Source of the DNA: Rosistilla carotiformis
GTDB lineage: Bacteria; Planctomycetota; Planctomycetia; Pirellulales; Pirellulaceae
Direction: 5' to 3'
DNA length: 64,000 bases
NCBI RefSeq assembly: GCF_007753095.1
Contig: NZ_CP036348.1
Location: forward strand, 4,154,001 to 4,218,000
Shown: in pieces, positions 18,973 through 35,520 of the stretch
Position numbering within the stretch: the first letter of the stretch is position 1
Layout: the number at the start of each line of letters is the position of its first letter
Notes under the pieces: generated by a model
The model's input: the letters and a program-made list of their open reading frames with translations, nothing else
Told to the model about the DNA's origin: nothing
Databases searched by the model: none
Position numbers and translations under genes: made by a program

Positions 18973-19107
18973 TCAACGCAAAATATCCCGCACCACGTTC
19001 CCATGCACATCGGTCAGCCGGTAGTCGCGGCCGGCGTGGCGAAAGGTCAGCTGTTCGTGGTCGATCCCCAGCAAGTGCAGGATCGTGGCGTGGAAATACT
19101 GATTTTG
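18973..19107 (-). pseudogene. Decayed 3' end of a DUF1501 gene (copy A)
   Basis: Minus-strand translation gives [20 protein letters not shown], then [20 protein letters not shown] and a stop at 18973-18975. This matches the C-terminus of the intact DUF1501 protein at 31415-32767 ([23 protein letters not shown]...). Homology stops abruptly near 19107, upstream of which no DUF1501 sequence is seen, so only the last 40 or so codons survive. Confidence 0.8.
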
Positions 19108-19647: not shown

Positions 19648-21204
19648 ATGCCGCAACACGTTTCGCTTGATCGCCGTTCCCTTTTGACAGCCGCCTCCGC
19701 CGCCGCACTGTGGCCGTTGGCGAACATTTGCATCGCCGAAGCGGCGGACCGTCGCACTCGCACGTCGAACGATCCGTTTCAGCTGGGAATCGCATCGGGC
19801 GATCCAGCCCCCGATGGATTCGTGCTGTGGACGCGGCTGGCGCCCGATCCATTGAACGGTGGCGGGATGCCAGCGGAGAACGTCCGCGTCCGTTGGCAAG
19901 TGGCAACCGACGACGGGATGAAGAACATTGTCCGCAAGGGAGTCGCCACGGCCGACAAAGACTGGGCGCATTCGGTGCATGTCGAGGTGCAGGGCCTGCT
20001 GCCCGATCGGACCTATTGGTACCAATTCGAAGCGGCGGGAGAGATCAGTTCGATCGGCCGCACGCGAACGACGCCCGCCGCCGACGTGATGCCCGACCGA
20101 TTGCGGTTCGCCTTTGCATCATGTCAGCACTACGAGACAGGGTACTTCAATGCGTTACGGCACATGGCCAACGAAGACCTTCATGCAGTCGTCCATCTGG
20201 GCGATTACATCTATGAAGGAGGAATGTCGAAGCCACGGCCGCGGCAGCACAACAGCGCTGAGATCGTCTCGCTGGACGACTATCGCAATCGCTACGCGCT
20301 CTATCGCGGCGACGCCGATCTGCAAGCGGCGCACGCGGCCTTTCCGTGGATCGTCACTTGGGATGATCACGAATTCGACAACAACTGTGCCGGAGAGATC
20401 TCCGAACAGCCAGACGTCGCAGTCTCCGATTTCCTGAACCGGCGAGCCAACGCATATAAAGCGTATTACGAACACATGCCGCTGCGGCGTTCGACGCTGC
20501 CTCACGGCCCCATGATGCAGATCTACCGAAACATCAGCTACGGCCGACTGGCTCAGTTTTCGGTCCTCGACACACGTCAGTATCGCACCGATCAACCCTG
20601 CGGCGATCGCAACAAACCGGCCTGTCAGGGAGTCTTCGATCCCAACGCGACGCTGTTGGGGGACGTCCAGGAGAAATGGTTGTGCGACGGATTAGAGGCG
20701 TCGCCGGCGCGTTGGAACATCCTCGCGCAACAGGTGATGATGGCCCGTGTCGATCGCGTCCCAGGCGATGCGGTCGCGTACAGCATGGATCAATGGGCCG
20801 GTTATGAAGCGGGCCGCAAGCGGCTGATCCAGTTCCTTCAGGATCGCCAGATCGCCAACCCGATCGTCCTAACCGGCGACATCCACACCAACTGGGTGAA
20901 CGATATCAAAGTCGACTTCGACGACGAACAAGCGGCAGCGGTCGCGACGGAGTTTGTCGGAACGTCGATCACTTCGGGGGGTGATGGCGGTGAAAAACGC
21001 AAAGACACCGATGGCGTTCTGGCCGACAATCCGTTCGTCAAGTTCTACAACGCGGAGCGTGGGTACGTCCGCTGCGAAGTCACACCGCAGCAATGGACTA
21101 GCGATTTCCGTGTCGTTCCGATCGTTTCGAAGCCCGAATCGGATTGCCTGACCCGAGCCAGCTTTGTCGTCGAACAGGGTGTTGCGGGCGCCCAACGGGT
21201 CTGA
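19648..21204 (+). CDS. phoD: PhoD-like alkaline phosphatase / phosphodiesterase
   Basis: Protein of 518 residues. The N-terminus [18 protein letters not shown] is a Tat signal (RR with hydrophobic core), so the enzyme is exported folded. Residues about 42-140 form the PhoD N-terminal beta domain ([21 protein letters not shown]). The metallophosphatase domain follows with [13 protein letters not shown] near 156-168, HLGDYIYEG near 183-191 (Asp186), [10 protein letters not shown] at 237-246 and the late LTGDIHTNW motif, which provide Fe/Ca-type metal ligands in PhoD. The family releases phosphate from mono- and diesters outside the cytoplasm. The length is typical. No Pho-box was identified upstream. 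The gene appears to be monocistronic. Confidence 0.93.
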
Positions 21205-21649
21205 ATTTGGTTCGGCCGCCGATCGTAGGAGCCGACGGCCCATCTGCTTGCGTTATCGGACGCTCGGTTCCAAAGATTCGGGCGCCGCTGGCTCCACATG
21301 CACTTTCTACGCGGGAAGCGCTCATTACAGCGGCCGTGGATTGCGTTAGAATCACAGATCGATCGCGGTTTCTATCGACGACCGAACTTCGAAAATTGGC
21401 TCGGCCCGCATTGGATGCGGCCGCTGGACGGGACATCCCCGCAGTGGCACTCCAACCGATGTGGCAGGTTTCGCGTTGTCGGTCGTTGACAGATACCGCG
21501 TCTCCGCGGACGGATCGCTTGTCATCGCCGGAGCTCGATCGCCACCGAGCCCTCTGGGAAACCAAGCGTATGACAAAGCGTGACCGTTCGCGCAAGCTGT
21601 CAAGTTATCGCTAAGCAATCAAGCAATCGGTGAAGAGAGATCCAAGCAC
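21205..21649. other. Intergenic region without a supported gene
   Basis: 445 bp between phoD and the YebC-type gene. An open frame running through it on the plus strand starts inside phoD and has no coding character. GAAGAGAGA at about 21631-21639 is the likely ribosome site of the next gene. Confidence 0.45.
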
Positions 21650-22372
21650 ATGGGAAGAAGCTTTGAAGTTCGCAAAGTGTCGATGGCCAAAACAGCGGGA
21701 CAAAAGTCCAAGCTGTATTCCAAATATGGCAAGCAGTTGTACGTTCTTGCGAAAAACAGCGGAGCCGATCCGGCGGCGAATCCCTCATTGCGCAGCCTGA
21801 TCGACAAAGCGAAACGCGAGCAAGTGCCGGCCCATGTGATCGAGAAGGCACTCGAAAAAGCGTCTGGCGGCGGCGGCGAGGACTTTTCACTAGCACGCTA
21901 CGAAGGTTATGGACCCGGCGGCTGCGCGGTCATCGTCGATTGCTTGACCGATAACAACAACCGCACGATCACCGACGTCCGCAATTGCTTTACGAAGACG
22001 AGCTCCAAGCTGGGCGCTCCCGGTTCGGTCGCCCACTCCTTCGATCACTTGGCCGTGCTGCGATTTCCAGGCGAGAGCGCCGACCAGGTGCTCGAGATCT
22101 TGTTGGGTGCGGACGTCGACGTCGTCGATGTCGAATGCGAAAACGGCCAGGTGACGGTGTTTGCTCCATCGACCGAATTCTACAACGCGAAGCAGGCGTT
22201 GCTCGAAGCGACCCCGGAGCTGGAGTTTGATGTCGACGAAATCACTTTCGTCGCGCAAACCAATACCGACATCAGCCCCGACGACGTGCCGATGTTCGAG
22301 AAGTTTATGAACATGTTGAACGACTGCGATGACGTTCAAGACATCTATCACAACGCGATCTTGCCCGAATAG
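21650..22372 (+). CDS. YebC/PmpR family DNA-binding regulator
   Basis: Protein of 240 residues, typical length for the YebC/PmpR family. The N-terminal three-helix region contains [20 protein letters not shown] and [20 protein letters not shown], followed by the hallmark glycine patch [23 protein letters not shown] and the conserved [12 protein letters not shown]-like sequence (here [13 protein letters not shown]). The usual AGHSKWANIKHRK start is replaced by [28 protein letters not shown], the form of the second (non-RuvC-linked) subgroup. Members bind DNA as transcription factors or help resolve ribosome stalling. It is a stand-alone gene. Confidence 0.93.
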
Positions 22373-22419
22373 TCGATCGCGCGTTTCTTGCCGCGGTTGC
22401 GACGCAATCGCGGTCGCGG

Positions 22420-22553
22420 TCACACCAAGATTTCTTTAACGATCCGGCCATGCACGTCGGTCAGCCGGAAATCGCGGCCGGCGTGGCGGTAGGTCAAGCG
22501 TTTGTGATCGATCCCCATTTAATGCAGGATCGTGGTGTGCAAGTCGTGGGCGA
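22420..22553 (-). pseudogene. Decayed 3' end of a DUF1501 gene (copy B)
   Basis: Minus-strand translation reads FAHDLHTTILH, an in-frame TAA, then [12 protein letters not shown] and [20 protein letters not shown] with a stop at 22420-22422. Apart from the nonsense codon it is nearly identical to the C-terminus of the intact DUF1501 protein at 31415-32767. Homology ends exactly where the 61-bp palindromic element begins (22554), suggesting the element or a rearrangement at it cut the gene. Confidence 0.82.
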
Positions 22554-22614
22554 ATCAAAGACGTCGGGACTTTTTTAACGGCCCCGTTTATCAAAGAGTC
22601 CTGACGCCTTCGAC
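22554..22614. repeat. 61-bp palindromic element, copy 1 (diverged)
   Basis: Two 22-base arms around a 17-base loop. The right arm contains AAAGAGTCCTGACGCC, the left arm ATCAAAGACGTCGGGAC; several mismatches between arms. The loop (ending GTTTATC) and arms match the perfect copy at 24501-24553 plus 26136-26143. No coding capacity. It abuts the DUF1501 remnant on one side and a gene remnant on the other. Confidence 0.75.
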
Positions 22615-22892
22615 CTTGCCTACGCAGCAGCACGGGCGAGACCATCACGCCCCCCGTTGCCGACAGCAGCCAGCGGGATGCGATCGAAGAGGCTGAGCTG
22701 ATCGTTCAAGAATCGTCGTCCAGTTTCTTGGGAGTCGACAAAGCAACGCAGTACCCCGCCCCCACAGCAAACCGATACTCGGATTCGATCCCCGTCGATG
22801 CGGTGGACGCTGCATTAACCGACGATGAGCCGACATCGCAGGAAGAGTGGCGTGAGTTGATCGACACGGCGTTGGGCGAGTTTAACAACTAG
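22605..22892 (+). pseudogene. C-terminal gene remnant of unknown family
   Basis: An open frame of 95 codons starting inside the palindromic element and ending at the TAG at 22890-22892. From about 22632 it has clear coding character: TGETITPPVADSSQRDAIEE, then regular acidic, Ser-rich sequence ending EEWRELIDTALGEFNN. There is no start codon with a ribosome site, so this is the 3' end of a gene whose upstream part was removed at the palindromic element. The acidic C-terminus recalls the tail after the dockerin of the exported protease at 8425, but the family is not recognisable. Confidence 0.5.
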
Positions 22893-23068
22893 GCGACGTC
22901 GAACGCAGCAACGCGCGGTACAGGAAACCTGCGACCGCGCGCAGTAAATAGCAAACTCTAGCAACACCACCGTGAAACCGCTGAATTGCGACACACAACC
23001 GTCAATGCATCGCAATTTGTCAGTTAACTCCTGGCACCCCATGCGAAGCAAAGCCTCTGGACGCCAAA

Positions 23069-23097
23069 TGTTGACACCGCCCCCCACGCGGTCAACA
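23069..23097. promoter_or_regulatory. Inverted repeat upstream of the DUF5343/nuclease cassette
   Basis: TGTTGACACCGC at 23069-23080 and GCGGTCAACA at 23088-23097 pair with a two-base bulge. It lies about 150 bp before the DUF5343 start, in an otherwise unannotated 352-bp gap (22893-23244). It could be an operator or the terminator of the gene remnant; a TTGACA hexamer lies within the left arm. Confidence 0.35.
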
Positions 23098-23244
23098 ATA
23101 GCCGCCAGTAAAGCCGCGAACCGCAATAACAGGTGAGAATCCAATATTTCCCCGGAACGTGCAGGTGAACAACATTGTTATTTCGCTTGCCTGAGAATAA
23201 GAAACACTGAGCCACACCGCGATCCACATCAAACTGAAAATCTA

Positions 23245-23865
23245 ATGGCCACTTTCACGCAAACGCAAAACACTGGCAATCTTCAAGAATTCATCAACGG
23301 TATTCCCAGTCGTGGCGTGCCTGACAAAGTCACAAACAATCATCTAGAAGGTCTTGGCTACAAGTCGAAAAACGACAGGGCCATAATCACCGTCCTTAAA
23401 TTCATCGGTGTTCTGGAGTCCAACGGCGCCCCGTCTGCTGCGTACAAAAAGCTGCGCAACAAACATACGGCGCCTTCCGAATTGGCCGCGTTGATAAAGA
23501 TAGCTTACAGAGAGTTATTCAAAACCTATCCTGACGCCCAATCGAAAGACGGCGAAACACTTAAAACCTGGTTTGCATCGCACACATCGGTAGGCGAAGC
23601 GTCTGTAAAAAACATGGCGCAAACGTTCACCGCGCTTTGCGCTATCGCTGACTTCAATGGAACGCCTGACATCGAGCATGAGGAAGACGATGACAGCGAC
23701 GAAAAACCAGGTCCTCGCAAAAAGCGACGCGTGCGCCGTCAGCTGGATGCACAAGTTGCGTTCAATATCCAGGTGCAGATTCCTGGCGAGCAATCGCCCG
23801 AGGTTTACGAGGCGATATTCAAAAACCTTGGGAAATATGTTCTGGGCGTGGTAGATGACGAATAG
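23245..23865 (+). CDS. DUF5343 domain protein of a candidate defence cassette
   Basis: Protein of 206 residues. Residues about 20-140 match the DUF5343 pattern: GVPDKVTNNHLEGLGYKSKN with DRAIITVLKFIGVLESNG, then AYRELFKTYPDA and a helical NMAQTFTALCAIADF. A charged linker (HEEDDDSDEKPGPRKKRRVRR, about 144-166) leads to a C-terminal segment with the AFNIQVQIPGEQSPEVYEAI pattern seen after DUF5343 in other proteins. DUF5343 looks like a winged-helix-type domain and is recurrent next to nucleases and other defence genes; no activity is established. The next gene overlaps by 11 bp, so the two are translationally coupled. Base composition is visibly more AT-rich than the surroundings, and palindromic elements and an IS flank the pair, suggesting acquisition by transfer. 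Confidence 0.85.
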   Translation: MATFTQTQNTGNLQEFINGIPSRGVPDKVTNNHLEGLGYKSKNDRAIITVLKFIGVLESNGAPSAAYKKLRNKHTAPSELAALIKIAYRELFKTYPDAQSKDGETLKTWFASHTSVGEASVKNMAQTFTALCAIADFNGTPDIEHEEDDDSDEKPGPRKKRRVRRQLDAQVAFNIQVQIPGEQSPEVYEAIFKNLGKYVLGVVDDE

Positions 23866-24436
23866 ACCAATTGAATCTCTAACCCGCCTGGCGATCGGTA
23901 ATGCAGACGCACAACGGAAAATAAATCTGGTCTGTGGTGCAAGTGTCGCCCCACTGACCAACGTCAGAAAAGCGCGTCATATCCAAGACGTCTTTGACTT
24001 ACTAGATGAATTCCCAGATTGCGCTGGATACTCAAACAACCGACGTGGCCGAATCGTATTGCCTCTGGATTCAGAGGACGGCGTACAGGACATGTTGTAC
24101 TTCATGTTGAAACCTGCGATTCCAGACCTCGTACCGGAAACGCCCGTTTCCGGGCCGACTCGACAATACACTATTCAAGATTTTCGTTCGCCGCTATTGC
24201 GCATCGTGATCGAGGCGAAACGCACTCGTAACAAGACGCATGGTAAGCAAATCAAGGCCGAGTTAAATGATGACATTGGTGATTACAAAAACGATCCTTA
24301 TTGCGATGATTTGATTTTCTTTATTTACGATCCAGAAACATTTATAGAATCGGTTACCGGCTTAAAAAACGCGGTCGAGGGAGATCATGCTCACAATGGG
24401 CGGAAATTGCGAGTCCACTGTATCGTTCAGCGATGA
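23855..24436 (+). CDS. PD-(D/E)XK nuclease-fold protein of a candidate defence cassette
   Basis: Protein of 193 residues whose start overlaps the end of the DUF5343 gene. The catalytic core is recognisable: SEDGVQDMLYFMLK (about 73-86), PETPVSG with Glu95, IQDF with Asp109, then RIVIEAKRTRN with Glu120 and Lys122 giving the D-x10-ExK signature, followed by DDIGDYKNDPYCDDLIFFIYDPE (136-161), the helix-strand pair conserved in this restriction-endonuclease-like family. It should cut DNA or RNA in a metal-dependent manner; the target is unknown. There is no DNA-recognition or helicase domain, so specificity may come from the DUF5343 partner. An IS and palindromic repeat begin 65 bp downstream. 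Inference: a two-gene anti-phage or plasmid-maintenance module. Confidence 0.82.
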   Translation: MTNRPIESLTRLAIGNADAQRKINLVCGASVAPLTNVRKARHIQDVFDLLDEFPDCAGYSNNRRGRIVLPLDSEDGVQDMLYFMLKPAIPDLVPETPVSGPTRQYTIQDFRSPLLRIVIEAKRTRNKTHGKQIKAELNDDIGDYKNDPYCDDLIFFIYDPETFIESVTGLKNAVEGDHAHNGRKLRVHCIVQR

Positions 24437-24500
24437 TTGCGACATACCAATGCGTTGCACCGGTTCCGCGAAGTCCGGGCGTCTTCAAATGGAGGGACGG

Positions 24501-24553
24501 ATCAAAGGTGTCAGGACTCTTTTAGCGGCTTAGTTTATCAAAGAGTCCTGACA
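24501..24553. repeat. 61-bp palindromic element, copy 2, left 53 bp (split by the IS)
   Basis: Left arm 24501-24522 includes GTGTCAGGACTCTTT; right arm starts at 24540 with AAAGAGTCCTGACA and is interrupted by the IS after 24553. The missing CCTTTGAT is found at 26136-26143, directly after the IS and target duplication. When rejoined, the two arms are a perfect 22-bp inverted repeat around a 17-base loop. Confidence 0.88.
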
Positions 24554-26126
24554 CAATACTGTTCGGCACGAAAGTTGCGCATTGAATTTTGCGTGTTTCT
24601 GGCACGGCTTTTGCGCACCGGGGAACCAATTGCGGATGGTCCGCCAGTTTGACACACAGCGGATGAGCCAGTGCCAAAGCGACTCCCCAAACGACGAAAG
24701 CCAACGCCAGAAAAACGCCCCAGCGATCAGTGCACGGCCGACGAAGCTCAGCTCGATTTCAGGGCCCGGGATCTGCAGGGCCTGAAGTTTTTTAAAAAGA
24801 TCCGACCGCTGTTAGATTCGCTGCACGAAATCGGCACACAGCGTGACAAGTCCCACAACCGCGACCTGCACATGGACCAGTACGGCGTACTTGTTCTCAT
24901 GTGGATGTTCAACCCTATCCTGACGTCGCTCAGGGGGCTCCAGCAAGCCAGCACACTCAAGGATGTCCAAAAGAAGTTCGGCGTCGGGCGAGCTTCGCTC
25001 GGATCACTCTCGGAGTCGGTGAGCATCTTTGACCCCGAACCGCTGAAGCAAATTGCGGCGCAACTCGCGCACGACGTCCCATCAGCCGATCCTTCAAAGT
25101 TTGACGCGATCGAACACCAACTAACCGCCGTCGACGGAAGCGTGTTCAAGACTGCCGTGCGTGTGGCTTCGCTGGGCTGGTTGCCTAACAAAGCAGGAGG
25201 AACCACGAAGGGAAAGTCCGTTGATGGATACCGAATGCACACGCATTTCGAGATACTTCGCGGAGTCCCCGAACGCATGGATGCGACACCGGCCAAACCG
25301 AAAGGAAAGGATGACGAGAAGTCGGTCTTGGCATCGGTGCTGCAACCCGACCGCTGCTACGTGACCGATCGTGGTTACGCGAAGTTTGAGTTGTTCAATC
25401 AAATCAACGCTATTGGCAGCAGTTACATTTGCCGGGCCCGAGATAATAGTACACCGCAAATCCTAAGTGACCGAGAGCTCACGCAAGCTGACCGCGATGC
25501 CGGCGTTCGCGTCGACCGAGAAGTCATCTTAGGCGCGTGTACGAGCAACCGCAAAACGGTTCCAAGTGATCATCCAGTTCGCTTCATCGAGGTCGAAGTC
25601 CAACCTCATGTGCGCACCGGAAGCAAAGGCACCAACTGCGACGGTCGTCTGCGTTTGGTCACAAACCTGATGGACGTTCCCGCCGAACTGATTGCCGAAG
25701 CGTATCGGCTTCGCTGGCTGATCGAGTTGTTTTTTCGAATGATCAAGCAGCTTTTGGGCTGTCGACATCTGCTGAGCACCAAGCCGGAAGGCGTGGAGAT
25801 CCAGATGTACCTAGCGATCATCGCGTGTCTGTTGATTTTGATCTACACCGGCGGCCAACCGAACAAACGCACCTACGAGATGATCTGCTTCTACTTGCTC
25901 GGCTGGGCCAACCTGGAGGAACTGGAAGCACATATAGAAAAACTGAAACCCAAAGCTCTATAGAAGCACTGCGCGCCGACCGAAGTCCTGTGACTTCGGC
26001 GTTCGCTGCTGCGCGGTCAGTGGTTGACGCCCATCCTTCACCGGGCAATTCGCATCCGGAATCATCATCGCCAACTGCAGTCCTGATCATCTCTGGACGC
26101 AGCAGCAACCGGGCCGAACAGTATTG
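24554..26126 (+). mobile_element. Complete IS4-type insertion sequence (1,573 bp)
   Basis: Terminal inverted repeats of 14 bp, CAATACTGTTCGGC at 24554-24567 and its complement GCCGAACAGTATTG at 26113-26126. The 9-bp target GTCCTGACA is duplicated at 24545-24553 and 26127-26135, the duplication size known for IS4-family elements. One transposase gene (24671-25963) fills most of it. A 150-bp stretch after the transposase contains a small hairpin (CCGAAGTCCTGTGACTTCGG near 25980-26000). The intact ends and target duplication indicate a recent insertion, here into a 61-bp palindromic element. Confidence 0.93.
24671..25963 (+). CDS. IS4 family DDE transposase
   Basis: Protein of 430 residues, intact. 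A basic N-terminus (PKRLPKRRKP) is followed by the RNase H-fold catalytic domain: Asp155 in LTAVDGSVFK, Asp233 in CYVTDRGYAKFELFN, and Glu352 in the YRLRWLIELFFRMIK segment, which fits exactly the Y-(2)-R-(3)-E-(6)-K signature of the IS4 family (Tyr345, Arg348, Glu352, Lys359). A beta-strand insertion lies between the second Asp and the Glu (about 260-335). It should excise and insert the element 24554-26126 and could act on the truncated copy at 26211-27153, which keeps one inverted repeat. Confidence 0.95.
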   Translation: MPKRLPKRRKPTPEKRPSDQCTADEAQLDFRARDLQGLKFFKKIRPLLDSLHEIGTQRDKSHNRDLHMDQYGVLVLMWMFNPILTSLRGLQQASTLKDVQKKFGVGRASLGSLSESVSIFDPEPLKQIAAQLAHDVPSADPSKFDAIEHQLTAVDGSVFKTAVRVASLGWLPNKAGGTTKGKSVDGYRMHTHFEILRGVPERMDATPAKPKGKDDEKSVLASVLQPDRCYVTDRGYAKFELFNQINAIGSSYICRARDNSTPQILSDRELTQADRDAGVRVDREVILGACTSNRKTVPSDHPVRFIEVEVQPHVRTGSKGTNCDGRLRLVTNLMDVPAELIAEAYRLRWLIELFFRMIKQLLGCRHLLSTKPEGVEIQMYLAIIACLLILIYTGGQPNKRTYEMICFYLLGWANLEELEAHIEKLKPKAL

Positions 26127-27036
26127 GTCCTGACACCTTTGATTTGATCGCAAAATTCAATGCGCAACTTTCGTGCCGAACAGTAGTGGTCCTGACACCT
26201 TTGATTTGACCGCGGTCAGCTTGCGTGAGCTCTCGGTCACTTAGGATTTGCGGTGTACTATTGTCTCGGGCCCGGCAAATGTAACTGCTGCCAATAGCGT
26301 TGATTTGATTGAACAACTCAAACTTCGCGTATCCACGATCGGTCACGTAGCAGCGATCGGGTTGCAGCACCGATGCCAAGACCGACTTCTCGTCATCCTT
26401 TCCTTTCGGTTTGGCCGGTGTCGCATCCATGCGTTCGGGGACTCCGCGAAGTATCTCGAAATGCGTGTGCATTCGGTATCCATCAACGGACTTTCCCTTC
26501 GTGGTTCCTCCTGCTTTGTTAGGCAACCAGCCCAGCGAAGCCACACGCACGGCAGTCTTGAACACGCTTCCGTCGACGGCGGTTAGTTGGTGTTCGATCG
26601 CGTCAAACTTTGAAGGATCGGCTGATGGGACTTCGTGCGCGAGTTGCGCCGCAATTTGCTTCAGCGGTTCGGGGTCAAAGATGCTCACCGACTCCGAGAG
26701 TGATCCGAGCGAAGCTCGCCCGACGCCGAACTTCTTTTGGACATCCTTGAGTGTGCTGGCTTGCTGGAGCCCCCTGAGCGACGTCAGGATAGGGTTGAAC
26801 ATCCACATGAGAACAAGTACGCCGTACTGGTCCATGTGCAGGTCGCGGTTGTGGGACTTGTCACGCTGTGTGCCGATTTCGTGCAGCGAATCTAACAGCG
26901 GTCGGATCTTTTTAAAAAACTTCAGGCCCTGCAGATCCCGGGCCCTGAAATCGAGCTGAGCTTCGTCGGCCGTGCACTGATCGCTGGGGCGTTTTTCTGG
27001 CGTTGGCTTTCGTCGTTTGGGGAGTCGCTTTGGCAC
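26065..27036 (-). pseudogene. Truncated IS4 transposase
   Basis: The first 274 residues equal the transposase at 24671-25963 (one visible difference, HE for HD near residue 134-135), then the frame runs into unrelated sequence after RELTQADR and ends at 26065. Asp155 and Asp233 are kept, but the third catalytic residue Glu352 and the C-terminal domain are missing, so it cannot be an active transposase; a dominant-negative effect on the intact copy is conceivable. Confidence 0.9.
26149..26188 (-). mobile_element. Solo IS end (40 bp) with target-like flank
   Basis: CGCAAAATTCAATGCGCAAC onward to GCCGAACAGTAGTG repeats the first 40 bp of the IS (left end, inverted), with one change in the terminal repeat. 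It is followed by GTCCTGACACCTTTGATTTGA, the same flank as the complete IS. It lies between the complete IS and the truncated inverted copy; a footprint of a further insertion plus deletion or recombination. Confidence 0.8.
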
Positions 27037-27153
27037 TGGCTCATCCGCTGTGTGTCAAACTGGCGAACCATCCGCAATTGGTTCTCCGGTGCGCAAAAGC
27101 CGTGCCAGAAACACGCAAAATTCAATGCGCAACTTTCGTGCCGAACAGTATTG
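26211..27153 (-). mobile_element. Truncated, inverted second copy of the IS4 element
   Basis: About 943 bp nearly identical to the left 60 percent of the complete IS, in opposite orientation. The left terminal repeat is intact (GCCGAACAGTATTG at 27140-27153) and followed by GTCCTGACA, as for the full copy. The other end stops abruptly at 26211, in the middle of the transposase gene, against palindrome-derived sequence. The two copies form a large inverted repeat that could drive inversion or deletion. Confidence 0.92.
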
Positions 27154-27158
27154 GTCCT

Positions 27159-27194
27159 GACACCTTTGATTTGATTGACACCTTTGATTTGATT
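27159..27194. repeat. Tandem 18-bp duplication derived from the palindromic element
   Basis: GACACCTTTGATTTGATT occurs twice in direct tandem (27159-27176 and 27177-27194) right after the truncated IS copy. The unit is the outer arm and flank of the 61-bp palindromic element, so this looks like slippage or repeated insertion/repair at the same site. Confidence 0.85.
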
Positions 27195-27548
27195 GAAGAC
27201 CCATTGATCGCTTCCAGGCGGGAGGATCTCTGCGGTCGACATTGCAAAGAAGCAAGCGACCATCGCACCGATCCCACTAGCAACGATCGAAATCGGCCAA
27301 CTGGCCTTCGTGCGTAGGAGCAAGCAATGACGGTCGACGCGATCGATCCGATCGTGATCCCGCTTGCGCCTCTGGCTAACCCTATCGAGTTCTCTCCTGC
27401 ATAACCTTAATCCCGCCACCGAGTTTCAACTGTCGAGGGCAATCCGCCGGCCCGGGACCAAACGACCACTGACGCCTTCGTCAGTAGAGTCTAGACTGGG
27501 GGATTGTCATGGAAGACTCGTTAGCAGTTACTTTAGAGAGAACGTTCG
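27195..27548. other. Intergenic region with a possible membrane-protein remnant
   Basis: About 350 bp. The minus strand translates to a hydrophobic stretch PISIVASGIGAMVACFFAMS, then TAEILPPGSDQW, ending at the repeat near 27194, which could be the end of a small membrane protein cut by the IS region, but no start or family can be supported. The right part is the upstream region of the kinase gene, without an obvious promoter. Confidence 0.35.
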
Positions 27549-30500
27549 ATGCAACGCGACCACGAAGCACAGCAAGAAACCATCGACGGCCGGGCGGACG
27601 ATGAACCAGACGTATTGATGACGATCTCAAAGAACTGGGAAGGTTCGCTGACGTCGGATGCTGAACCTTGGCATACGCTCAAGGCAACGCTGGGTATCTC
27701 GGGTGAGCAAGTCGGTTCGCTCCAGCAGACGTTCGCGCTAAAACTGCGCAGTGTGTTGCCGACCGATGCTTCGGGAACGGTTTCCGATCCGTCCGCCATC
27801 GCCGACGCTGACTATCAGGTGAAATCGTTGTTGGGTGTCGGTGGGATGGGGGCGGTGTATGCAGCGCGACAGCAGTCGATGGATCGGTCCGTTGCGATCA
27901 AGGTACTCAAGGGCGATTCAGCTCGGTCGGAGAGTAGTCGTCTGGCGTTCGTTTCCGAAGCGATCATCACGGGCCGTTTGGATCATCCCAACATCGTGCC
28001 GATTTACGATGTGGGCAAGCAGACCGACGATGCGCTGTTCTATTCGATGAAGCAGGTCGAAGGCGTAGAGTGGAAAAAACGTTTTGCTGAAAACAGCGTC
28101 TCGGAGAATTTGGAGATTCTGTTGCGTGTGTGTGATGCAATCGCGTTTGCACACAACCGTGAGATCATTCATCGCGATTTGAAACCAGCAAACATCATGC
28201 TGGGTCCGTTCGGTGAAGTGCTGGTGATGGATTGGGGGTTGGCGATCCCGACCAAAGATCATCCGCGTCGTGCTTCATTCCCGCCGCTTGGTGCTGGTGG
28301 GACGCCATGTTACATGGCACCCGAAATGGTCACCAACATCGCATCTATTGATGTTCGCAGCGATGTGTATTTGCTCGGCGGGATTCTGTTTGAGATCGTC
28401 ACAGGCAAACCGCCCCATGTTCTCAATTCGCAGCCGGTAGGTCAACGCGAACGGTTGATGGCCTATTTCCGCGCGGCGGCAAACAACGTGATCGCCTCGA
28501 CCGAGGAGGAAGGCGAGTTACTGGATATCGCTCGCAAGGCCATCGCGACCGATCCGGCCGATCGCTACCAGACGGTGCCCGAGTTCCAGGCTGCGATTCG
28601 TGAGTACCTTTCCCATGAGGAGAGCATTGAATTGGCCGCGAACGCGGCAGAACGCTTGAACAGCGCTCAGCAATGCGGCGTTTACGAAGAGTTTAGTCGC
28701 GCACGCTTCGGGTTCGAGACCGCGTTGGAACAGTGGCCGAAAAATGAGCGTGCGGCAGTCGGACTGAAGCAGGCAAACTTTGCTTTTGCAAGTCACGCGT
28801 TTGAACGTGGTGACTTGGATTTGGCGGCGTCGTTGTTAGACGAAGGGGAGCCCGAGCACGCCTCGCTAGGATTGCAAATCGGAAGTGCGATCGTCGATCG
28901 AGACGCGAAACAAAAGCAGCTGCGTCGACTGCGATTCGCGACCCTCGCAGCCAGCCTTGCCGTGGCCATCGTCTCAAGTGTGGGTGCCCTGTGGATCAAC
29001 TCAGAACGGACTAAAGCAATGGTCGCTCGGCAAGAAGAAGCAGCTCAACGAAAGATTGCACAGTTCAACGAATTGAAAGCGAGTGCTGCGGAGGTTGAGG
29101 CTAAACACGAAGCTGACAACGCGGTGCAAAACATGAAGGTTGCCGAACGCAACGCTTACTACTCGGACATGCTGCTCCTGAGGCAAGCCTGGTCCGAAGG
29201 GAACACGGTTATGATGCGCAAACGGCTTGATCGTCATCGCGGCGCCGATGACGGCAGAGGATTCGAGTGGGGGTACTGGAACCGCCTCGCCAACTGCGAG
29301 ATTTTCGCCCTAAGTGGTCATAACAATCGCATCACAGGAGTCGCTTACAGCCCCGATGGCACGCGTATTGCCACTGCGAGTACAGATTGGTCCGTGCGAG
29401 TGTGGGATGCGACAACGGGAATACAGTTGCTTCAGTTTACTGCACATAAAGGAGGATCTAACAGAGTATCGTTTAGTCCGGACGGGACGCGGCTTGCGTC
29501 GTGTGGCGGTGATCAGACCGTGAAGATATGGAATGTAGAAACGGGTAAGCAGATCCTGCTTTTGACGGGGCACACAGGTCGTGTAAACAGCGTTTCGTAC
29601 AACGCCATCGGGACTCGCCTTGCGTCAGCGGGTGACGACAAGTTGGTGAAGGTTTGGGACGCAAAAACAGGACAGCTGATCCATTCACTAACTGGACACA
29701 CGGGACCCGTCCACGACACTTCTTTCGGGCTAGGCGACAAGCTTGCGTCGGTCAGCAGAGATAGAACGTTGAGGATTTGGGACGCGGAGACGGGGCTGGA
29801 GACTCAAACGAATCTTTCAAACACGTCAGATATTTATCGCGTAAAGTTCAGTCCCAACGGCACGATACTTGCGACCGCTGAAGAGGAATCCGTGAAAGTT
29901 CGCGATGCGGCGACGGGGCAGATAAAGGACACGCTGGACGGCCACCTCACCACTGTCCATAGCCTCGCATTCAGCCCTGACGGCACGAAGCTCTGCTCGG
30001 GGAGTTGGGACCGAGCAATCAAAATCTGGGACATGGCAACTGGAGATGAACTCCTCACACTTAGAGGGCACGGCGGCCCCGTCTTCGACGTTTCATTTGG
30101 TTCCGACGGAACGCGTTTGGCGTCGGCAAGTGGGGATCATACAGCGAAGGTTTGGGACGTGTGCTCCAGTCGAGAGTCCCTCATCCTAAGCAACAGTAAA
30201 AGGAAATCGGTTCGATCTGTTTGCTTTAGCCCTGACGAAAAGTTATTGGCATCTACCACATGGGGAAACGAGTTGATTGTCTGGGACGCGGTCGCGGGCC
30301 AGGAAAAAATCGCGATACGCAACGATGTTGGGCTTCTCAAGTGTTTGGCATTTAGTCCGGACGGAACCCGATTAGCGAGTGGTGGAAACGACAGCCTTGT
30401 GAGGATTTGGGACCCTTCCTCTCTACAAGAAAAACAAACGCTTAAGGGTCACGTCGGCAAAGTCACAAGCGTGTCGTTCAGTCCTGATGGGACGGTGTTA

Positions 30501-31229
30501 GTCTCAACAAGCGAAGACCGAACAGTCAAAGTGTGGGATGCAGTAACCGGCGAGAATACCCGCACACTCGAACGACACAGCGATATAGTTCAACACGCTG
30601 CGTTTCGCCCAGATGGTTTGAAGCTAGCAACCGCCAGTACGGATAAAACCGTGAAGTTGTGGGACACCACTACATGGCAAGAGACTGGCACGCTCAATGG
30701 ACACGACATCGAAGTCACTTTCGCAGTGTATTCGCCCGACGGAGGTCGCCTCATCACAGCAGATGGTCGCGGATTGGTAAAAGTCTGGGATGAGGCTAGC
30801 GGCCAGTTGATTCAGTCGTTGGCCAGCCATACCGATAGGATCAGCGCATTAAGTTTCTGTTCAGACGGTAGCCGCATTGCGTCGGTGAGTCGCGATGGAT
30901 CGGTAAAAGTTTGGGACGCGGAAACATGGCAGGAGACACTGTCGCTGAACGGATTTGATAAACAATTAAACGATGTGTCGTTCAATTCCGAAGGCACGCA
31001 ACTGATCACGGCGGATACATCCTGCAATTTAAGAGTGTGGGACGCACGACAGTGGACTCCAGAGTTGCGAATGCAGGCATATACCCGCAGCTACCTGACA
31101 GTGCACCGCGACCGAGCTAAGTCGCTGGAAGAACTTCGCGCGTCGATTCGCGACGATAAAACGATCAACGATACCGTCCGCCAGCAAGCAAGTGATTGGG
31201 CGGAACTGTTTTGGAAGAACCGGAATTGA
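27549..31229 (+). CDS. Membrane Ser/Thr protein kinase with WD40 sensor domain
   Basis: Protein of 1,226 residues. The Hanks-type kinase domain spans about 88-355: glycine loop GVGGMGAVY (96-104), Lys118 in VAIK, catalytic HRDLKPAN (208-215), DWG instead of DFG (228-230, Asp kept) and APE at 257-259. A helical linker with TPR-like character precedes one transmembrane helix at about 461-483 (RFATLAASLAVAIVSSVGALW), then a coiled coil (about 486-540) and a WD40 region of roughly 14 repeats (about 585-1180) with repeated SFSPDGTRLAS and VKVWDA motifs. The kinase is cytoplasmic and the propeller(s) should be on the other side of the membrane. Planctomycetes encode many such kinases, presumably signal receptors; ligand unknown. 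Gene is monocistronic; GAGAG lies just upstream of the ATG. Confidence 0.94.
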   Translation: MQRDHEAQQETIDGRADDEPDVLMTISKNWEGSLTSDAEPWHTLKATLGISGEQVGSLQQTFALKLRSVLPTDASGTVSDPSAIADADYQVKSLLGVGGMGAVYAARQQSMDRSVAIKVLKGDSARSESSRLAFVSEAIITGRLDHPNIVPIYDVGKQTDDALFYSMKQVEGVEWKKRFAENSVSENLEILLRVCDAIAFAHNREIIHRDLKPANIMLGPFGEVLVMDWGLAIPTKDHPRRASFPPLGAGGTPCYMAPEMVTNIASIDVRSDVYLLGGILFEIVTGKPPHVLNSQPVGQRERLMAYFRAAANNVIASTEEEGELLDIARKAIATDPADRYQTVPEFQAAIREYLSHEESIELAANAAERLNSAQQCGVYEEFSRARFGFETALEQWPKNERAAVGLKQANFAFASHAFERGDLDLAASLLDEGEPEHASLGLQIGSAIVDRDAKQKQLRRLRFATLAASLAVAIVSSVGALWINSERTKAMVARQEEAAQRKIAQFNELKASAAEVEAKHEADNAVQNMKVAERNAYYSDMLLLRQAWSEGNTVMMRKRLDRHRGADDGRGFEWGYWNRLANCEIFALSGHNNRITGVAYSPDGTRIATASTDWSVRVWDATTGIQLLQFTAHKGGSNRVSFSPDGTRLASCGGDQTVKIWNVETGKQILLLTGHTGRVNSVSYNAIGTRLASAGDDKLVKVWDAKTGQLIHSLTGHTGPVHDTSFGLGDKLASVSRDRTLRIWDAETGLETQTNLSNTSDIYRVKFSPNGTILATAEEESVKVRDAATGQIKDTLDGHLTTVHSLAFSPDGTKLCSGSWDRAIKIWDMATGDELLTLRGHGGPVFDVSFGSDGTRLASASGDHTAKVWDVCSSRESLILSNSKRKSVRSVCFSPDEKLLASTTWGNELIVWDAVAGQEKIAIRNDVGLLKCLAFSPDGTRLASGGNDSLVRIWDPSSLQEKQTLKGHVGKVTSVSFSPDGTVLVSTSEDRTVKVWDAVTGENTRTLERHSDIVQHAAFRPDGLKLATASTDKTVKLWDTTTWQETGTLNGHDIEVTFAVYSPDGGRLITADGRGLVKVWDEASGQLIQSLASHTDRISALSFCSDGSRIASVSRDGSVKVWDAETWQETLSLNGFDKQLNDVSFNSEGTQLITADTSCNLRVWDARQWTPELRMQAYTRSYLTVHRDRAKSLEELRASIRDDKTINDTVRQQASDWAELFWKNRN

Positions 31230-31414
31230 TGAAGCAGTTCTGTGGTGAAAGCATCTGTGATGATGCACGATGGTGATACTGGACCATAGAATTGCTATCC
31301 TCTGTTGCTGGAATGCTCCCCAGATTACAAACCGCTGTTCAGGCTCTCACATCGCAAAGTGGGTGCCGTCATCGGATGGCACCCACGGGGACCGCCTCGC
31401 AAACGCTGTCACGG

Positions 31415-32767
31415 CTACGCCAGGATCTCCTTGACGATACGGCCATGCACGTCGGTCAATCGAAAATCGCGGCCGGCGTGGCGGTAGGTCAAGCGTTTGT
31501 GATCGATCCCCATTTGATGCAGGATTGTGGCGTGCAAGTCGTGGACGTCGATCTTGTCGCGGACGATGCTGCGTCCCAGTTCGTCGGTCTCGCCGAGCAC
31601 AAAGCCTGCTTTGACGCCACCGCCGGCCAACCAGATCGAAAAGCAATCGCCGTGGTGCCCGCGGCCGAACTTGCCTTCTTTGGTCGGGGTGCGGCCGAAC
31701 TCGGTAGCCCAAACGATTAACGTCTCATCCAACATTCCACGCTGCTTGAGATCTTGGATCAACGCGGCCAGCGGTTGATCCGCGGCCTTGGCCAACGGTT
31801 GGTGCTCTTTCATGTCGCCGTGCGAATCCCAGTTCGGCCGCGATCCGCTGTCGACCAATTCGATAAACCGCACGCCTCGCTCGGCCAATCGACGCGCGAT
31901 AATGCACTGCCAAGCGAAGCTCTTCGTTTCCCCTGGCTTCAGCCCATACATCGACAGCGCCCGTTCATCCTCGTTGCTCAAATCAAACGCTTCAGGTCCC
32001 GCGGTTTGCATTTGAAACGCGGTCTCATAGCTCTTGATCCGAGCGGCCAATTGGGAATCGTCGCGGCGGCTTTGTAAGTGCTTTTGGTTCAGCGAATCGA
32101 CAAGCGACAGTTCCATCTGCTGGATCTTTTGCCGAGTCGTTCGCGGCGCCAGATTCGCGATCGGTTCGGTCCCAGGAATGACTCGCGTTCCTTGATGATA
32201 AGCGGGTAAAAAATCGCTGGCGTAAACCTGCGTGCCGCCATAAGGAAGATGGGGCGCAATCACGATGAAGGAAGGCAGGTTCTGGTTGACCGTCCCTAGG
32301 CCGTAGCTGAGCCACGATCCCATGCTCGGCCGGGCGAACGTTGGCGAACCGGTATGCATCCCGACAGCCGCTTCGGTATGGTCGAAGTGAGCCGACTTCA
32401 TCGACCGGATCAGACAGATCTCTTCCATCGAATCGCGGAGGTGAGGGAACAGATCGCTGACGACCGTCCCCGTCTTCTTGGCTGGCCGAGTGGGGAAGAC
32501 GCATCCCATCAACTTGTCCTTGCCGCTGCCATCGCGTCCCTTTTTCGACGACTTGGGATCGAAGCTGTCGATGTGGGAAACACCGCCGGTGGCAAAGACC
32601 ATGATCACCCGCTTTGCTTTGGCAGGAAAATGAGGCGACTTGGGTGTCAGCGGTCCCATGGCGGGAGCCTCCGCCGCCGCCAGGTCCGACAGAACGGCAG
32701 GGAACAGGATCGAGCTGCCGATCAGCGAACGAAGGCATTGCCGACGCGTCGGTTCGATAAAATTCAT
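31415..32767 (-). CDS. DUF1501 family protein (sulfatase-like fold), paired with PSCyt1 protein
   Basis: Protein of 450 residues from ATG 32767. The N-terminus TRRQCLRSLIGSSILFPAVL resembles a Tat/Sec signal, followed by the DUF1501 core: KRVIMVFATGGVSHIDSFDPK (71-91), MKSAHFDHTEAAVGMHTGSP, WATEFGRTPTKEG and the C-terminal [21 protein letters not shown] with [15 protein letters not shown]1501 has an alkaline-phosphatase/sulfatase-like fold. It lies 26 bp after the PSCyt1/DUF1549/DUF1553 gene on the same strand; this pair is one of the commonest planctomycete operons and is thought to serve periplasmic degradation of complex carbon compounds, but no reaction is proven. Two decayed copies of its last 40 codons lie at 18973 and 22420. 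Confidence 0.93.
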   Translation of the reverse strand: MNFIEPTRRQCLRSLIGSSILFPAVLSDLAAAEAPAMGPLTPKSPHFPAKAKRVIMVFATGGVSHIDSFDPKSSKKGRDGSGKDKLMGCVFPTRPAKKTGTVVSDLFPHLRDSMEEICLIRSMKSAHFDHTEAAVGMHTGSPTFARPSMGSWLSYGLGTVNQNLPSFIVIAPHLPYGGTQVYASDFLPAYHQGTRVIPGTEPIANLAPRTTRQKIQQMELSLVDSLNQKHLQSRRDDSQLAARIKSYETAFQMQTAGPEAFDLSNEDERALSMYGLKPGETKSFAWQCIIARRLAERGVRFIELVDSGSRPNWDSHGDMKEHQPLAKAADQPLAALIQDLKQRGMLDETLIVWATEFGRTPTKEGKFGRGHHGDCFSIWLAGGGVKAGFVLGETDELGRSIVRDKIDVHDLHATILHQMGIDHKRLTYRHAGRDFRLTDVHGRIVKEILA

Positions 32768-32793
32768 CACATCCAACCTTTGACTACCATGGC

Positions 32794-35520
32794 TCAATCG
32801 ACATACAAAAATTCGTTCGTGCGGAACAGCGATCGGACAAGCGCGGTCCAAGCTTCTTGTTCACGCTTCGCAGCATCATCAACAGAATCTCGCAATTGAT
32901 CGTCCAGCGAACGCAACCACTCCATCACGCCATCGCGTTCGGACTGCGATGGCGGACGCCCAAAAGCTAGTTCAAAGGCATAGGGCAACCGTTCGCTGGC
33001 GTCCTTCTTTTCCGCAATCAACCGCGCTGCAAACTTCTCCGCTCGCTCATGCACAAACGGGTCGTTGATCAGATACAGCGACTGGACCGTCGTCACGCTG
33101 CTATCGCGCGCGGCGGTGCTGGCGTTCTGATCAGGGCCGTCAAATGTGGTGAAGAAGGGACGCGCGTTCAGCCGCGCCATCATCAGATAGACGCTCCGCT
33201 TTTTCGAATCGTAGCTGTCGCGGAACGGATGGTGTTGCGTGTACTTCCACTTCTCCGCCGGAGGAAACGGATGGGGGTCGCGCAGCATCTGCAAGTCCAA
33301 CTCGCCGCTTAACAACAGCATCGTGTCGCGCAGCGTCTCCGCTTCCATCCGCTGTCGGGGAAATCGCCAATGGAGTTCGTTGTTCGGATCGACCGCCAGA
33401 GCTTTCGTGTTGCCATCGGCTTGCGAACTCAATTGATAGGTGCGGCTGAGCATGATCCGGCGGTGAAGCGATTTGATCGACCAACCCTCTTCGATGAACC
33501 GAGACGCCAACCAGTCGAGCAACTGCGGATGGCTGGGCGCCACGCCGCGGATCCCGAAGTCGCTGGGCGTCTTCACAAGTCCGCTGCCGAAATGATATTG
33601 CCAGATCCGGTTCGCCATCACTCTTGCGGTCAGCGGATTGTCGGCGGCAGTCATCCACTGCGCCAACTGCAACCGACCGCTCGACTGCGTCGCCTGTTCG
33701 GGAAGCATCTGCCCACCGAGGACCTCTAAGAACTTGCGAGGCACGATATCGCCGGGTTGATCGGGTTCGCCACGCTGCTGCAAATGGACGTCATTTGCGT
33801 TTCCATCAGCCATCGCATACGCCAACTCTTTTCCCGGTTTGCCGCCGTCGACGAGAGCGACAAAGTCGCGTGGCTTCTGATCGAGTTCGATCCCCGGAAA
33901 CGGATACCGCGTGCTTGCGAAGATGCCATACAAACCGTAATAGTCGTCCTGCGAGATCGGATCGAACTTGTGGTCGTGGCAGCGAGCGCAGGCGACGGTC
34001 ATCCCGAGCACCGTGCGGCCCAGGTTGTCGATCGTATCCTCGATCGTCAAATGCTGCGGGTAGTTTTTGATGACCGATCCAAATCGGCGCGAACTCGCCA
34101 GGTAGCCGGTGGCAATCGTCTGCTCGTTCTTCTGCACATCGCTTTCGGCGGGCATCAGATCCCCGGCGATCTGTTCTTGTAGAAAGCGATCGTACGGTTT
34201 GTCGGCGTTAAACGAATCGATGATGTAGTTGCGGTACAGGTAGGCTTCGGGGATGGGGAAGTCGGAGTTGTCGCCAGCGGTGTCGGCGTACCGAACCAGA
34301 TCCATCCAATGCCGCCCCCATCGTTCACCATAACGAGGCGATCGGAGCAACCGTTCGACAACCTTGGCAAAAGCGTCCGCCGAATCATCCGCCACGAAGG
34401 CTTCGATCTCTTGCGGCGAAGGGGGCAAACCGGTCAGATCGAATGTCGCCCGGCGGATCAGCGTCCGCTTGTCGGCATCGCCAGTTGGAACCAGGCCGCG
34501 GCTGTCGAGCTTCTCCGCAATGAACCGATCGATCTCGGTTACCGCCCAATCGGACGACGGCGTTGGAACCGTCGGATCGGACAACGGTCGAAGCGACCAG
34601 AACTGCCTCGCCTTTTCGACATCGATCTTTTTGCGAACGAATCGCGTCGCGGTCGTTCGCGGGTCGGGAGCGCCCATCGCGACCCAGCGTTCCAAATCGG
34701 CGACGTCCGCGGACGATAGTTTTTCATCTGGCGGCATCTCCATCCCATCGGCGTACCGTACCGCTTGGATCAGGAGGCTGTGATTGACGTCGCCGGGAAC
34801 CACCGCCGGTCCATTGGTTCCCCCGCGTCGCAGCGTCGGCCGCGAATCGACTAACAAACCGCCCTGCAGATCATCGCTCTCGCTGCTATGGCATTCGTAA
34901 CAATGCTTTACTAACAGCGGTCGGATCCGGGTCTCGAAGAACGTCAGTTGATCGTCCGTAATCGGAGCCTCGTGCGAACCGTCGTGTTTGCCGCGCCAAA
35001 GTTCGACGCCTGAGAAGTTCGCTGCGCCACCGCGGCTTGTCAGTTCGATCGTCCCTTGGGTGACGTCGACGTACCACGGCCCAAGACGTTCCCAATGCCC
35101 GGCGGCACCGCTGGAAAACTGAGAGACCACGGTTTTACCATCGACGCGAATTTCAAACGTTTCACTTCGGTTGTCCTCCCAAACGTATAGAAAGACCGTA
35201 AACGTTTCGTTGGGCAGGTTCTTCAGCAGCACGCGATTCCCGTTCCACCGACTGCTGCGAATCATCAGCGCCCGCTGCGGATCGGTCGCAGGGACAAGTG
35301 CGACACCTTGTTGTTCAAAGGCCTTGTCCTTGCACTCGTAATTCCCCGACTCCTTCCCTTCCCAACGATTCCCATCGATCAGTACGGCGGGGCCATTGAG
35401 ATTCAGCCCACGAAAGAAGCTTGCCGTTTCATCGGCCGAAGCTGCTGAAGCAAACGTAACTATTGCGAGTATCAACCCACCACGCATAACAACCGTAGAT
35501 AGCACTCGCAAACACTCCAT
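32794..35520 (-). CDS. PSCyt1 / DUF1549 / DUF1553 c-type cytochrome protein
   Basis: Protein of 908 residues. A signal peptide (GGLILAIVTFASAASAD, about 14-30) is followed by a beta-sandwich carbohydrate-binding-like region (about 35-175: VFLYVWEDNRSETFEIRVDGK), the planctomycete cytochrome PSCyt1 with heme motif CYECH at 207-211 and distal DGMEMPPDEKLS, DUF1549 (about 325-530: FIAEKLDSRGLVPTGDADKR, ERWGRHWMDLVRYADT) and DUF1553 (about 610-880: MANRIWQYHFGSGLV, SRTYQLSS). First gene of a two-gene operon with DUF1501 (26-bp gap). Known only as a planctomycete-expanded periplasmic family, proposed to take part in oxidative or hydrolytic breakdown of algal polymers. An alternative start at 35487 begins nearer to the signal peptide. 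Confidence 0.94.
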   Translation of the reverse strand: MECLRVLSTVVMRGGLILAIVTFASAASADETASFFRGLNLNGPAVLIDGNRWEGKESGNYECKDKAFEQQGVALVPATDPQRALMIRSSRWNGNRVLLKNLPNETFTVFLYVWEDNRSETFEIRVDGKTVVSQFSSGAAGHWERLGPWYVDVTQGTIELTSRGGAANFSGVELWRGKHDGSHEAPITDDQLTFFETRIRPLLVKHCYECHSSESDDLQGGLLVDSRPTLRRGGTNGPAVVPGDVNHSLLIQAVRYADGMEMPPDEKLSSADVADLERWVAMGAPDPRTTATRFVRKKIDVEKARQFWSLRPLSDPTVPTPSSDWAVTEIDRFIAEKLDSRGLVPTGDADKRTLIRRATFDLTGLPPSPQEIEAFVADDSADAFAKVVERLLRSPRYGERWGRHWMDLVRYADTAGDNSDFPIPEAYLYRNYIIDSFNADKPYDRFLQEQIAGDLMPAESDVQKNEQTIATGYLASSRRFGSVIKNYPQHLTIEDTIDNLGRTVLGMTVACARCHDHKFDPISQDDYYGLYGIFASTRYPFPGIELDQKPRDFVALVDGGKPGKELAYAMADGNANDVHLQQRGEPDQPGDIVPRKFLEVLGGQMLPEQATQSSGRLQLAQWMTAADNPLTARVMANRIWQYHFGSGLVKTPSDFGIRGVAPSHPQLLDWLASRFIEEGWSIKSLHRRIMLSRTYQLSSQADGNTKALAVDPNNELHWRFPRQRMEAETLRDTMLLLSGELDLQMLRDPHPFPPAEKWKYTQHHPFRDSYDSKKRSVYLMMARLNARPFFTTFDGPDQNASTAARDSSVTTVQSLYLINDPFVHERAEKFAARLIAEKKDASERLPYAFELAFGRPPSQSERDGVMEWLRSLDDQLRDSVDDAAKREQEAWTALVRSLFRTNEFLYVD

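Follow-up and report, generated by a model that had tools for sequence, protein, structure and literature searches.

A DUF5343 gene overlapping a DpnII-MboI-type nuclease gene in Rosistilla carotiformis: a candidate two-gene abortive-infection or antitoxin-like module

The Gene Pair and Its Proposed Role

The planctomycete Rosistilla carotiformis has a single-contig genome of 7.44 Mb, and positions 4154001–4218000 of it, a stretch of 64,000 nucleotides referred to below as the window, contain two small overlapping genes on the forward strand. Gene A (23245–23865, +, 206 residues) encodes a DUF5343 protein, and gene B (23855–24436, +, 193 residues) encodes a PD-(D/E)XK nuclease of the DpnII-MboI family. 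The best explanation of the pair, which we give about an even chance of being right, is a two-gene abortive-infection or antitoxin-like module, related to the phage defence candidate PDC-M34 and carrying a different effector. Gene A would be the constant part of this module, and the tail of its product would bind B, the effector encoded by the overlapping gene, and restrain or position it. An invader sensed by A, or a disturbance of A itself, would then release or activate B. Active B would cut DNA without strong sequence preference, and the infected cell would stop growing or die.

The domain assignments, the recurrent pairing, the catalytic core, the tail, and the accessory distribution are observed; the contact of A with B, the control of B by A, the trigger, a DNA substrate, and a role in defence are predicted. 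Gene A matches DUF5343 (Pfam PF17278, 5.1e-37; domain at residues 8–140) and, in PADLOC, two PDC-M34A models (PDLC04589, 7.3e-45; PDLC04588, 3.1e-22). Gene B matches the DpnII-MboI family (PF18742, 4.8e-23; score 81.8 bits, cut-off 27). In PADLOC, it matches best to Aga_Helical-REase, an Argonaute-associated model (1e-15), and no match to PDC-M34B, the HEPN_Swt1 component, was listed at E up to 10. An initial annotation, made from the letters alone, had described two AT-rich overlapping genes for a DUF5343 protein and a restriction-fold nuclease with an intact D-x10-ExK core. Recomputed coordinates and lengths agree with it, including the 11-bp overlap (23855–23865, +, ATGACGAATAG), and the GC contents of genes A and B are 0.499 and 0.471 vs. 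0.570 for the whole window. Gene A is single-copy in a whole-genome search made with A, and a promoter scan was uninformative (1 site, with 1.8 expected).

The Nuclease Encoded by Gene B

The predicted catalytic core of B, D109-x10-E120-A-K122 (24179–24220, +), is intact, and its three residues, like E95, do not vary across an alignment of six nucleases that includes B, so the conservation of the core among homologues, on which the initial annotation depended, was found. The profile of the six nucleases has a sole match in the PDB, namely EcbAgaN, the effector nuclease of a long-B prokaryotic Argonaute (23wq; 8.3e-11 with the profile, 0.069 with B alone), in which D298, E309, and K311 align to D109, E120, and K122 of B. 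EcbAgaN is described as a DNase that is inactivated by D298A or by the double substitution E309A-K311A, is stimulated upon target recognition by its Argonaute, and, together with this partner, breaks down genomic DNA and kills the cell; the two were reportedly not co-purified (PMC10620215).

Relatives of B are found in 8 of 149 genomes of the family, and the nuclease domain without DUF5343 is commoner than the pair. Four unpaired DpnII-MboI-type nucleases in the same six-member alignment are 25–28% identical to B, and the N-termini of the two paired nucleases are 60–100 residues shorter than theirs. No annotated DUF5343 gene was found in two plasmid regions with unpaired relatives of B, and no DUF5343 match was obtained in two family genomes with such relatives. 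With gene B as the query, no relative was found in viral contigs. On a Pantoea plasmid (L100, 397–5402), a relative of B annotated as a transposase lies behind the defence gene dsr1, and another (L101, 4725–6589), annotated as malate dehydrogenase, has an Abi family gene as its neighbour.

DUF5343 Proteins and Their Partners

Profile searches yielded 28 DUF5343 loci in total. Of these, 4 came from 241 family genomes, 7 further ones from 392 genomes drawn from the phylum, and 1 further one, found with the PADLOC model, from 151 genomes belonging to one order; 10 came from 398 genomes drawn from the phylum to which L065 belongs, and 6 from 366 genomes drawn from that of L048. This count excludes the below-cut-off matches L019 and L098; L092 and L105 are included and sit in centre genomes picked for carrying the gene, the window being another such centre. 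An effector-type partner is adjacent or fused at 24 of the 28 loci. The partner is HEPN_Swt1 at 15 loci, DUF4145-like at 4, a HEPN-like protein with an RNECAH motif at 2, PD-(D/E)XK at 2, and a fused Ser/Thr kinase at 1; none was found at the remaining 4, two of which are fragmentary.

These class assignments differ in their basis. Pfam confirmed HEPN_Swt1 at 5 of the 15 loci, and the rest were assigned by profiles built from these loci, with L092 and L105 classed via the same loci under other names (L065 and L048). Five partner proteins at other loci match both PDC-M34B and Pfam HEPN_Swt1. The DUF4145-like partners score 18.4–21.0 bits in the three proteins scanned, below the Pfam cut-off of 23.1, and L095 was placed in this class by a custom profile only. 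In the RNECAH class, the motif name of which is our own reading, L107 scores 21.2 bits with the DUF4145 model (below the cut-off), and the best match of L106 to any model has E 0.14. The two RRNECAH-motif partners themselves (L106, 768–1298; L107, 2120–2656) are below every Pfam cut-off and have no PADLOC match; they are perhaps an unnamed effector family. An in-frame fusion of DUF5343 with a Ser/Thr kinase (L016, 1486–2856) shares its contig with a DUF5343 + HEPN_Swt1 pair (L020) that lies about 4 kb away.

A DNA-pattern search gave 56 loci from many phyla and one archaeon, 4 of them already among the 28. HEPN_Swt1 adjoins in 55 of the 56, in pieces in L062 and L078, and the partner of the odd one is cut off at a contig end; this search used a tail motif and is biased accordingly. 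The statement in the initial annotation that DUF5343 recurs next to nucleases thus holds for the recurrence, and the usual neighbour proves to be HEPN_Swt1, not PD-(D/E)XK.

The variety of partners bears on the role of A. The initial annotation had suggested that the DUF5343 protein gives target specificity to B, and the pair could be a restriction-like enzyme in which binding of A to a DNA sequence or modification would confine cutting by B to such sites. B does belong to a restriction-enzyme fold family and, compared with its unpaired relatives, is missing part of the N-terminal region. However, the A family also occurs with HEPN-type, HEPN-like, and kinase partners, for which a reader of DNA sites makes little sense, and no cognate methyltransferase was found among the neighbouring proteins scanned (19648–35520 in the window, and the neighbours of the second nuclease pair described below). 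We consider a restriction-like enzyme unlikely, and specificity given by A is not specifically supported. Because DUF5343 pairs with these other effectors too, a general sensor, regulator, or antitoxin role of A fits better than that of a DNA-sequence reader.

The Conserved Tail of Gene A

In the A protein, the DUF5343 domain at the N-terminus is followed by a variable linker and then by a conserved tail at the C-terminus (residues 174–200; 23764–23844, +, NIQVQIPGEQSPEVYEAIFKNLGKYVL). The tail consensus of DUF5343 proteins is YNIQIHLPxTxDIxVYNAIFKSLKEHL. A tail profile built solely from HEPN_Swt1-labelled tails matches the A proteins of the two nuclease pairs (window A, 2.3e-9; L103, 7.1e-6) and of the RNECAH class (L106, 3.6e-10; L107, 1.1e-6), where the E-values refer to the 11 sequences searched. 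For this profile, L062 and L071 were omitted, L032, L078, and duplicates were counted as HEPN_Swt1, and L097 and L109 stood outside the tail comparison. No match was found in three proteins without a separate partner, namely the kinase fusion L016 and the partnerless L017 and L108. Among the proteins compared, the presence of the tail goes with a separate partner gene, and its sequence and distribution suggest that it may be a docking element for an exchangeable effector.

A broader proposal, which we hold tentatively and with less than even confidence, is that DUF5343 is a general control subunit. Its tail would be a plug for the docking of four or more kinds of effector (HEPN_Swt1, DUF4145-like, RNECAH-type HEPN-like, and PD-(D/E)XK DNase), the kinase fusion would dispense with the tail, and the whole would form an effector-swapping immune platform, with a DNase here in place of the usual RNase. 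Given the several effector classes and the link between the tail and a separate partner, DUF5343, so far an unknown domain, becomes open to testing as a control subunit that docks through its tail. The DNase version would give a simple read-out, the loss of DNA, of DUF5343 sensing and partner control.

A Second Nuclease Pair and the Trees of Gene A

A second DUF5343 + PD-(D/E)XK pair is present at L103, in a genome (G1087) of another genus of the same family. Its A protein is 26% identical to that of the window, and its B protein is 35% identical over the six-nuclease alignment and 40% over 150 residues. The L103 nuclease keeps D-x10-E-x-K, and its genes likewise overlap by 11 bp (ATGGACAATAA vs. 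ATGACGAATAG in the window). The neighbours of L103 given to Pfam are a transposase, a DUF6714 protein, and one protein without a match.

This second pair helps to judge whether the genes in the window are inactive debris in a decaying region with many insertion sequences (ISs). The adjoining gene ends are decayed, and IS copies and fragments lie alongside. Nevertheless, both frames are open, and the catalytic residues, the tail, and the overlap match those of a homologous pair in another genus; we regard debris as very improbable.

In trees of A, a clade (100/99) unites the HEPN_Swt1-paired proteins with the kinase fusion; the A proteins of the window and of L103 are placed outside this clade, together with the other classes. 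The 74-row tree was made without L024 and L076 (the same loci as L015 and L014), L062, L071, and L078 (split open reading frames, ORFs), and L032 (partner cut off); L019, L097, and L109 had no match to the profile and are hence absent from it, and the labels read HEPN_Swt1 unless they were set by hand. Approximately unbiased (AU) tests were run on 32 rows, for which the 11 non-Swt1 rows were combined with one in three of the Swt1 rows. Joining the window A to the HEPN_Swt1 clade is not rejected (p-AU 0.467), and the rows of the restriction-endonuclease (REase) type are long-branched. A recent swap of the nuclease onto a HEPN_Swt1-type A is not favoured by the trees but, by this same value, is not rejected either. 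A single clade of window and L103 is neither supported nor rejected (p-AU 0.41), again with long branches.

Accessory Distribution and Defence Context

The A/B locus is accessory. DUF5343 occurs in 4 of 241 family genomes, and the two other species of the genus that were searched both lack a match to DUF5343 and to B; the pair is, thus, not core to the genus. In one of them (G072), the segment that holds the pair (22550–31393) is absent from the same site, and a DUF1501 gene directly follows yebC there; in the other (G006), the sequence downstream of yebC differs. A WD40 kinase gene and an IS, the latter accompanied by an incomplete inverted copy, also lie in the segment. Since 147-bp copies of the DUF1501 3' end (22403–22549 and 31398–31544, 88% identical) flank it, the sequence suggests that the segment entered by recombination between DUF1501 3' ends. 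Copies resembling this 3' end are seen around the yebC region at 22403–22549, 31398–31544, and 19001–19092, and they may act as recombination sites. The patchy occurrence, the empty site, the PADLOC match, and the abortive-infection DNase relative support the description of the pair in the initial annotation as a compact candidate defence or selfish module.

Some of these features would also suit a plain type II toxin-antitoxin system, which we regard as possible but rather doubtful. A would be the antitoxin, its N-terminal domain autoregulating and its tail neutralising, and B would be a DNase toxin; the locus would be kept by addiction, with no phage-specific sensor. The small overlapping genes in antitoxin-first order, the domain-linker-tail anatomy of A, and the accessory locus beside insertion sequences all agree with this. 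On the other hand, A belongs to a PADLOC candidate family, and one constant A goes with several partners, some of them near known defence systems. Addiction modules are common on plasmids and phages, and no DUF5343 match was obtained in 72,556 plasmid and 50,697 phage records at the sensitivity used. The window A found none in plasmids or viral contigs, the DUF5343 protein of L044 none in plasmids or phages, the L044 tail alone none in plasmids, and the DUF5343 alignment A3 none in viral contigs.

The neighbourhoods of some HEPN_Swt1-type loci hint at defence. Near 14 of the 28 full-length pattern-search loci (128 of 129 ORFs scanned, one large ORF left out), the matches listed (25 of 117 families) include type I restriction-modification subunits, GajB of Gabija, a prokaryotic Argonaute with a nuclease, and MADS proteins. 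The control comprised 56 of the 59 ORFs listed for the window and for four further regions in this genome and in its family; the matches listed there (25 of 53 families) are to models of the SNF2-helicase and kinase types, each with a single member. The helicase is the SNF2 helicase of the window, and the kinase presumably corresponds to the WD40 kinase at 27549. As the control omitted ORFs of more than 1500 residues, both REase-type pairs, and a second operon of this genome (L111, 5800–9700), it is cleaner than it would otherwise be and favours enrichment. The defence-gene neighbourhood of HEPN_Swt1-type loci is suggestive only.

Several points weigh against a defence module with a docked, exchangeable effector. 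This neighbour scan was limited to HEPN_Swt1-type loci, and its control was small and drawn from one phylum. No defence island was found in the neighbours scanned at the REase-type loci (window and L103); of eight larger window proteins submitted to PADLOC, the SNF2 helicase alone gave a match. REase-type loci number only two, the window and L103. The tail profile matches the A proteins of the DUF4145 class weakly (4 of 4, 1e-3 to 2.1e-2), and a PDB search found no solved relative of gene A (best E 0.45).

Surroundings of the Locus

The proteins scanned at 19648–35520 comprise PhoD, YebC, a 54-residue ORF without a match, a transposase, the WD40 kinase, DUF1501, and PSD1/PSCyt. For a DpdE/ZorD match at 49161–52535, Pfam shows SNF2 and Helicase_C domains only, and the match was not taken as a sign of a local defence island.

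The initial annotation had placed the pair between two copies of a palindromic element. Two related elements of about 60 bp do exist (22548–22605 and 24495–24552, 83% identical), but the second is not independent, being the left terminal hairpin of an IS (24501–26143, +) with perfect 17-bp terminal inverted repeats and a DDE_Tnp_1 transposase (24671–25963, Pfam). This hairpin folds much better than shuffled sequences do (z -5.6, 0 of 200 as good). The first element (22548–22605, +) is not clearly better than its shuffles (z -1.4, 18 of 200 as good) and, from its identity and fold, looks like a decayed relative of an IS end. The palindromes were therefore ruled out as boundaries of a cassette. 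Positions 24540–26144 are 100% identical (1605 bp) to a second IS copy near 3.707 Mb, the left end of which is degenerate. The IS is followed, up to 27170, by a 960-bp inverted partial copy (99%) and extra IS-end copies.

The decayed gene ends that were noted nearby are indeed present. The debris at 22403–22549 shares 88% identity with the intact DUF1501 gene at its 3' end (31398–31544), and that at 22625–22939 shares 86% with the terminal part of a large ORF at another place in the genome. Upstream of gene A, a leader (22988–23195, +) resembles that of the second candidate operon of this genome (L111, 7726–8055), with a local alignment score of 92 vs. a maximum of 33 across 50 shuffles. The L111 operon consists of a HEPN_RiboL-PSP-like gene, below the Pfam cut-off, and an unnamed gene. 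A homologue of 22625–22939 also lies near it; the leader is shared and the cargo is different.

Comparison with Known Systems

In a type II restriction-modification system, a methyltransferase stands next to the nuclease, and none was seen in the window proteins scanned. Unpaired DpnII-MboI-type nucleases of plasmids and family relatives share the domain and catalytic residues of B and differ from it in the longer N-terminus and the moderate identity given above. EcbAgaN has a related PD-(D/E)XK domain with the same D-x10-E-x-K spacing. It works in a two-component DNase system, as is proposed for B. B has 193 residues compared with 390 in EcbAgaN and is without the N-terminal part, and a DUF5343 gene stands beside it in place of an Argonaute gene. 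The gene order and the anatomy of A fit a type II toxin-antitoxin system, in which B would be toxic alone and A would neutralise it. A further likeness is one of design. AbiJ-NTD proteins (PMC3710099) join one N-terminal domain to HEPN, restriction-endonuclease, or kinase effectors, and thus follow the same principle, in a single polypeptide and with different domains.

The closest known system is PDC-M34 (DUF5343 + HEPN_Swt1), with which the pair shares the strong match of A (7.3e-45), the gene order, similar protein sizes, and the tail. It differs in the second gene, which is PD-(D/E)XK and not HEPN_Swt1, and in the position of the window A outside the HEPN_Swt1-paired clade, where joining was not rejected. 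Phage defence candidates of this type were found by "guilt-by-embedding", and experimental proof is lacking for most of them (PMC12988326, where the passages cited do not name PDC-M34 itself). In the paper library searched, no paper on DUF5343 or PDC-M34 was found. PDC-M34 is a computed candidate, and its first gene is seen here to occur with several classes of effector. Because its second gene belongs to a different enzyme class, the locus is not a member of PDC-M34, but it may work like PDC-M34.

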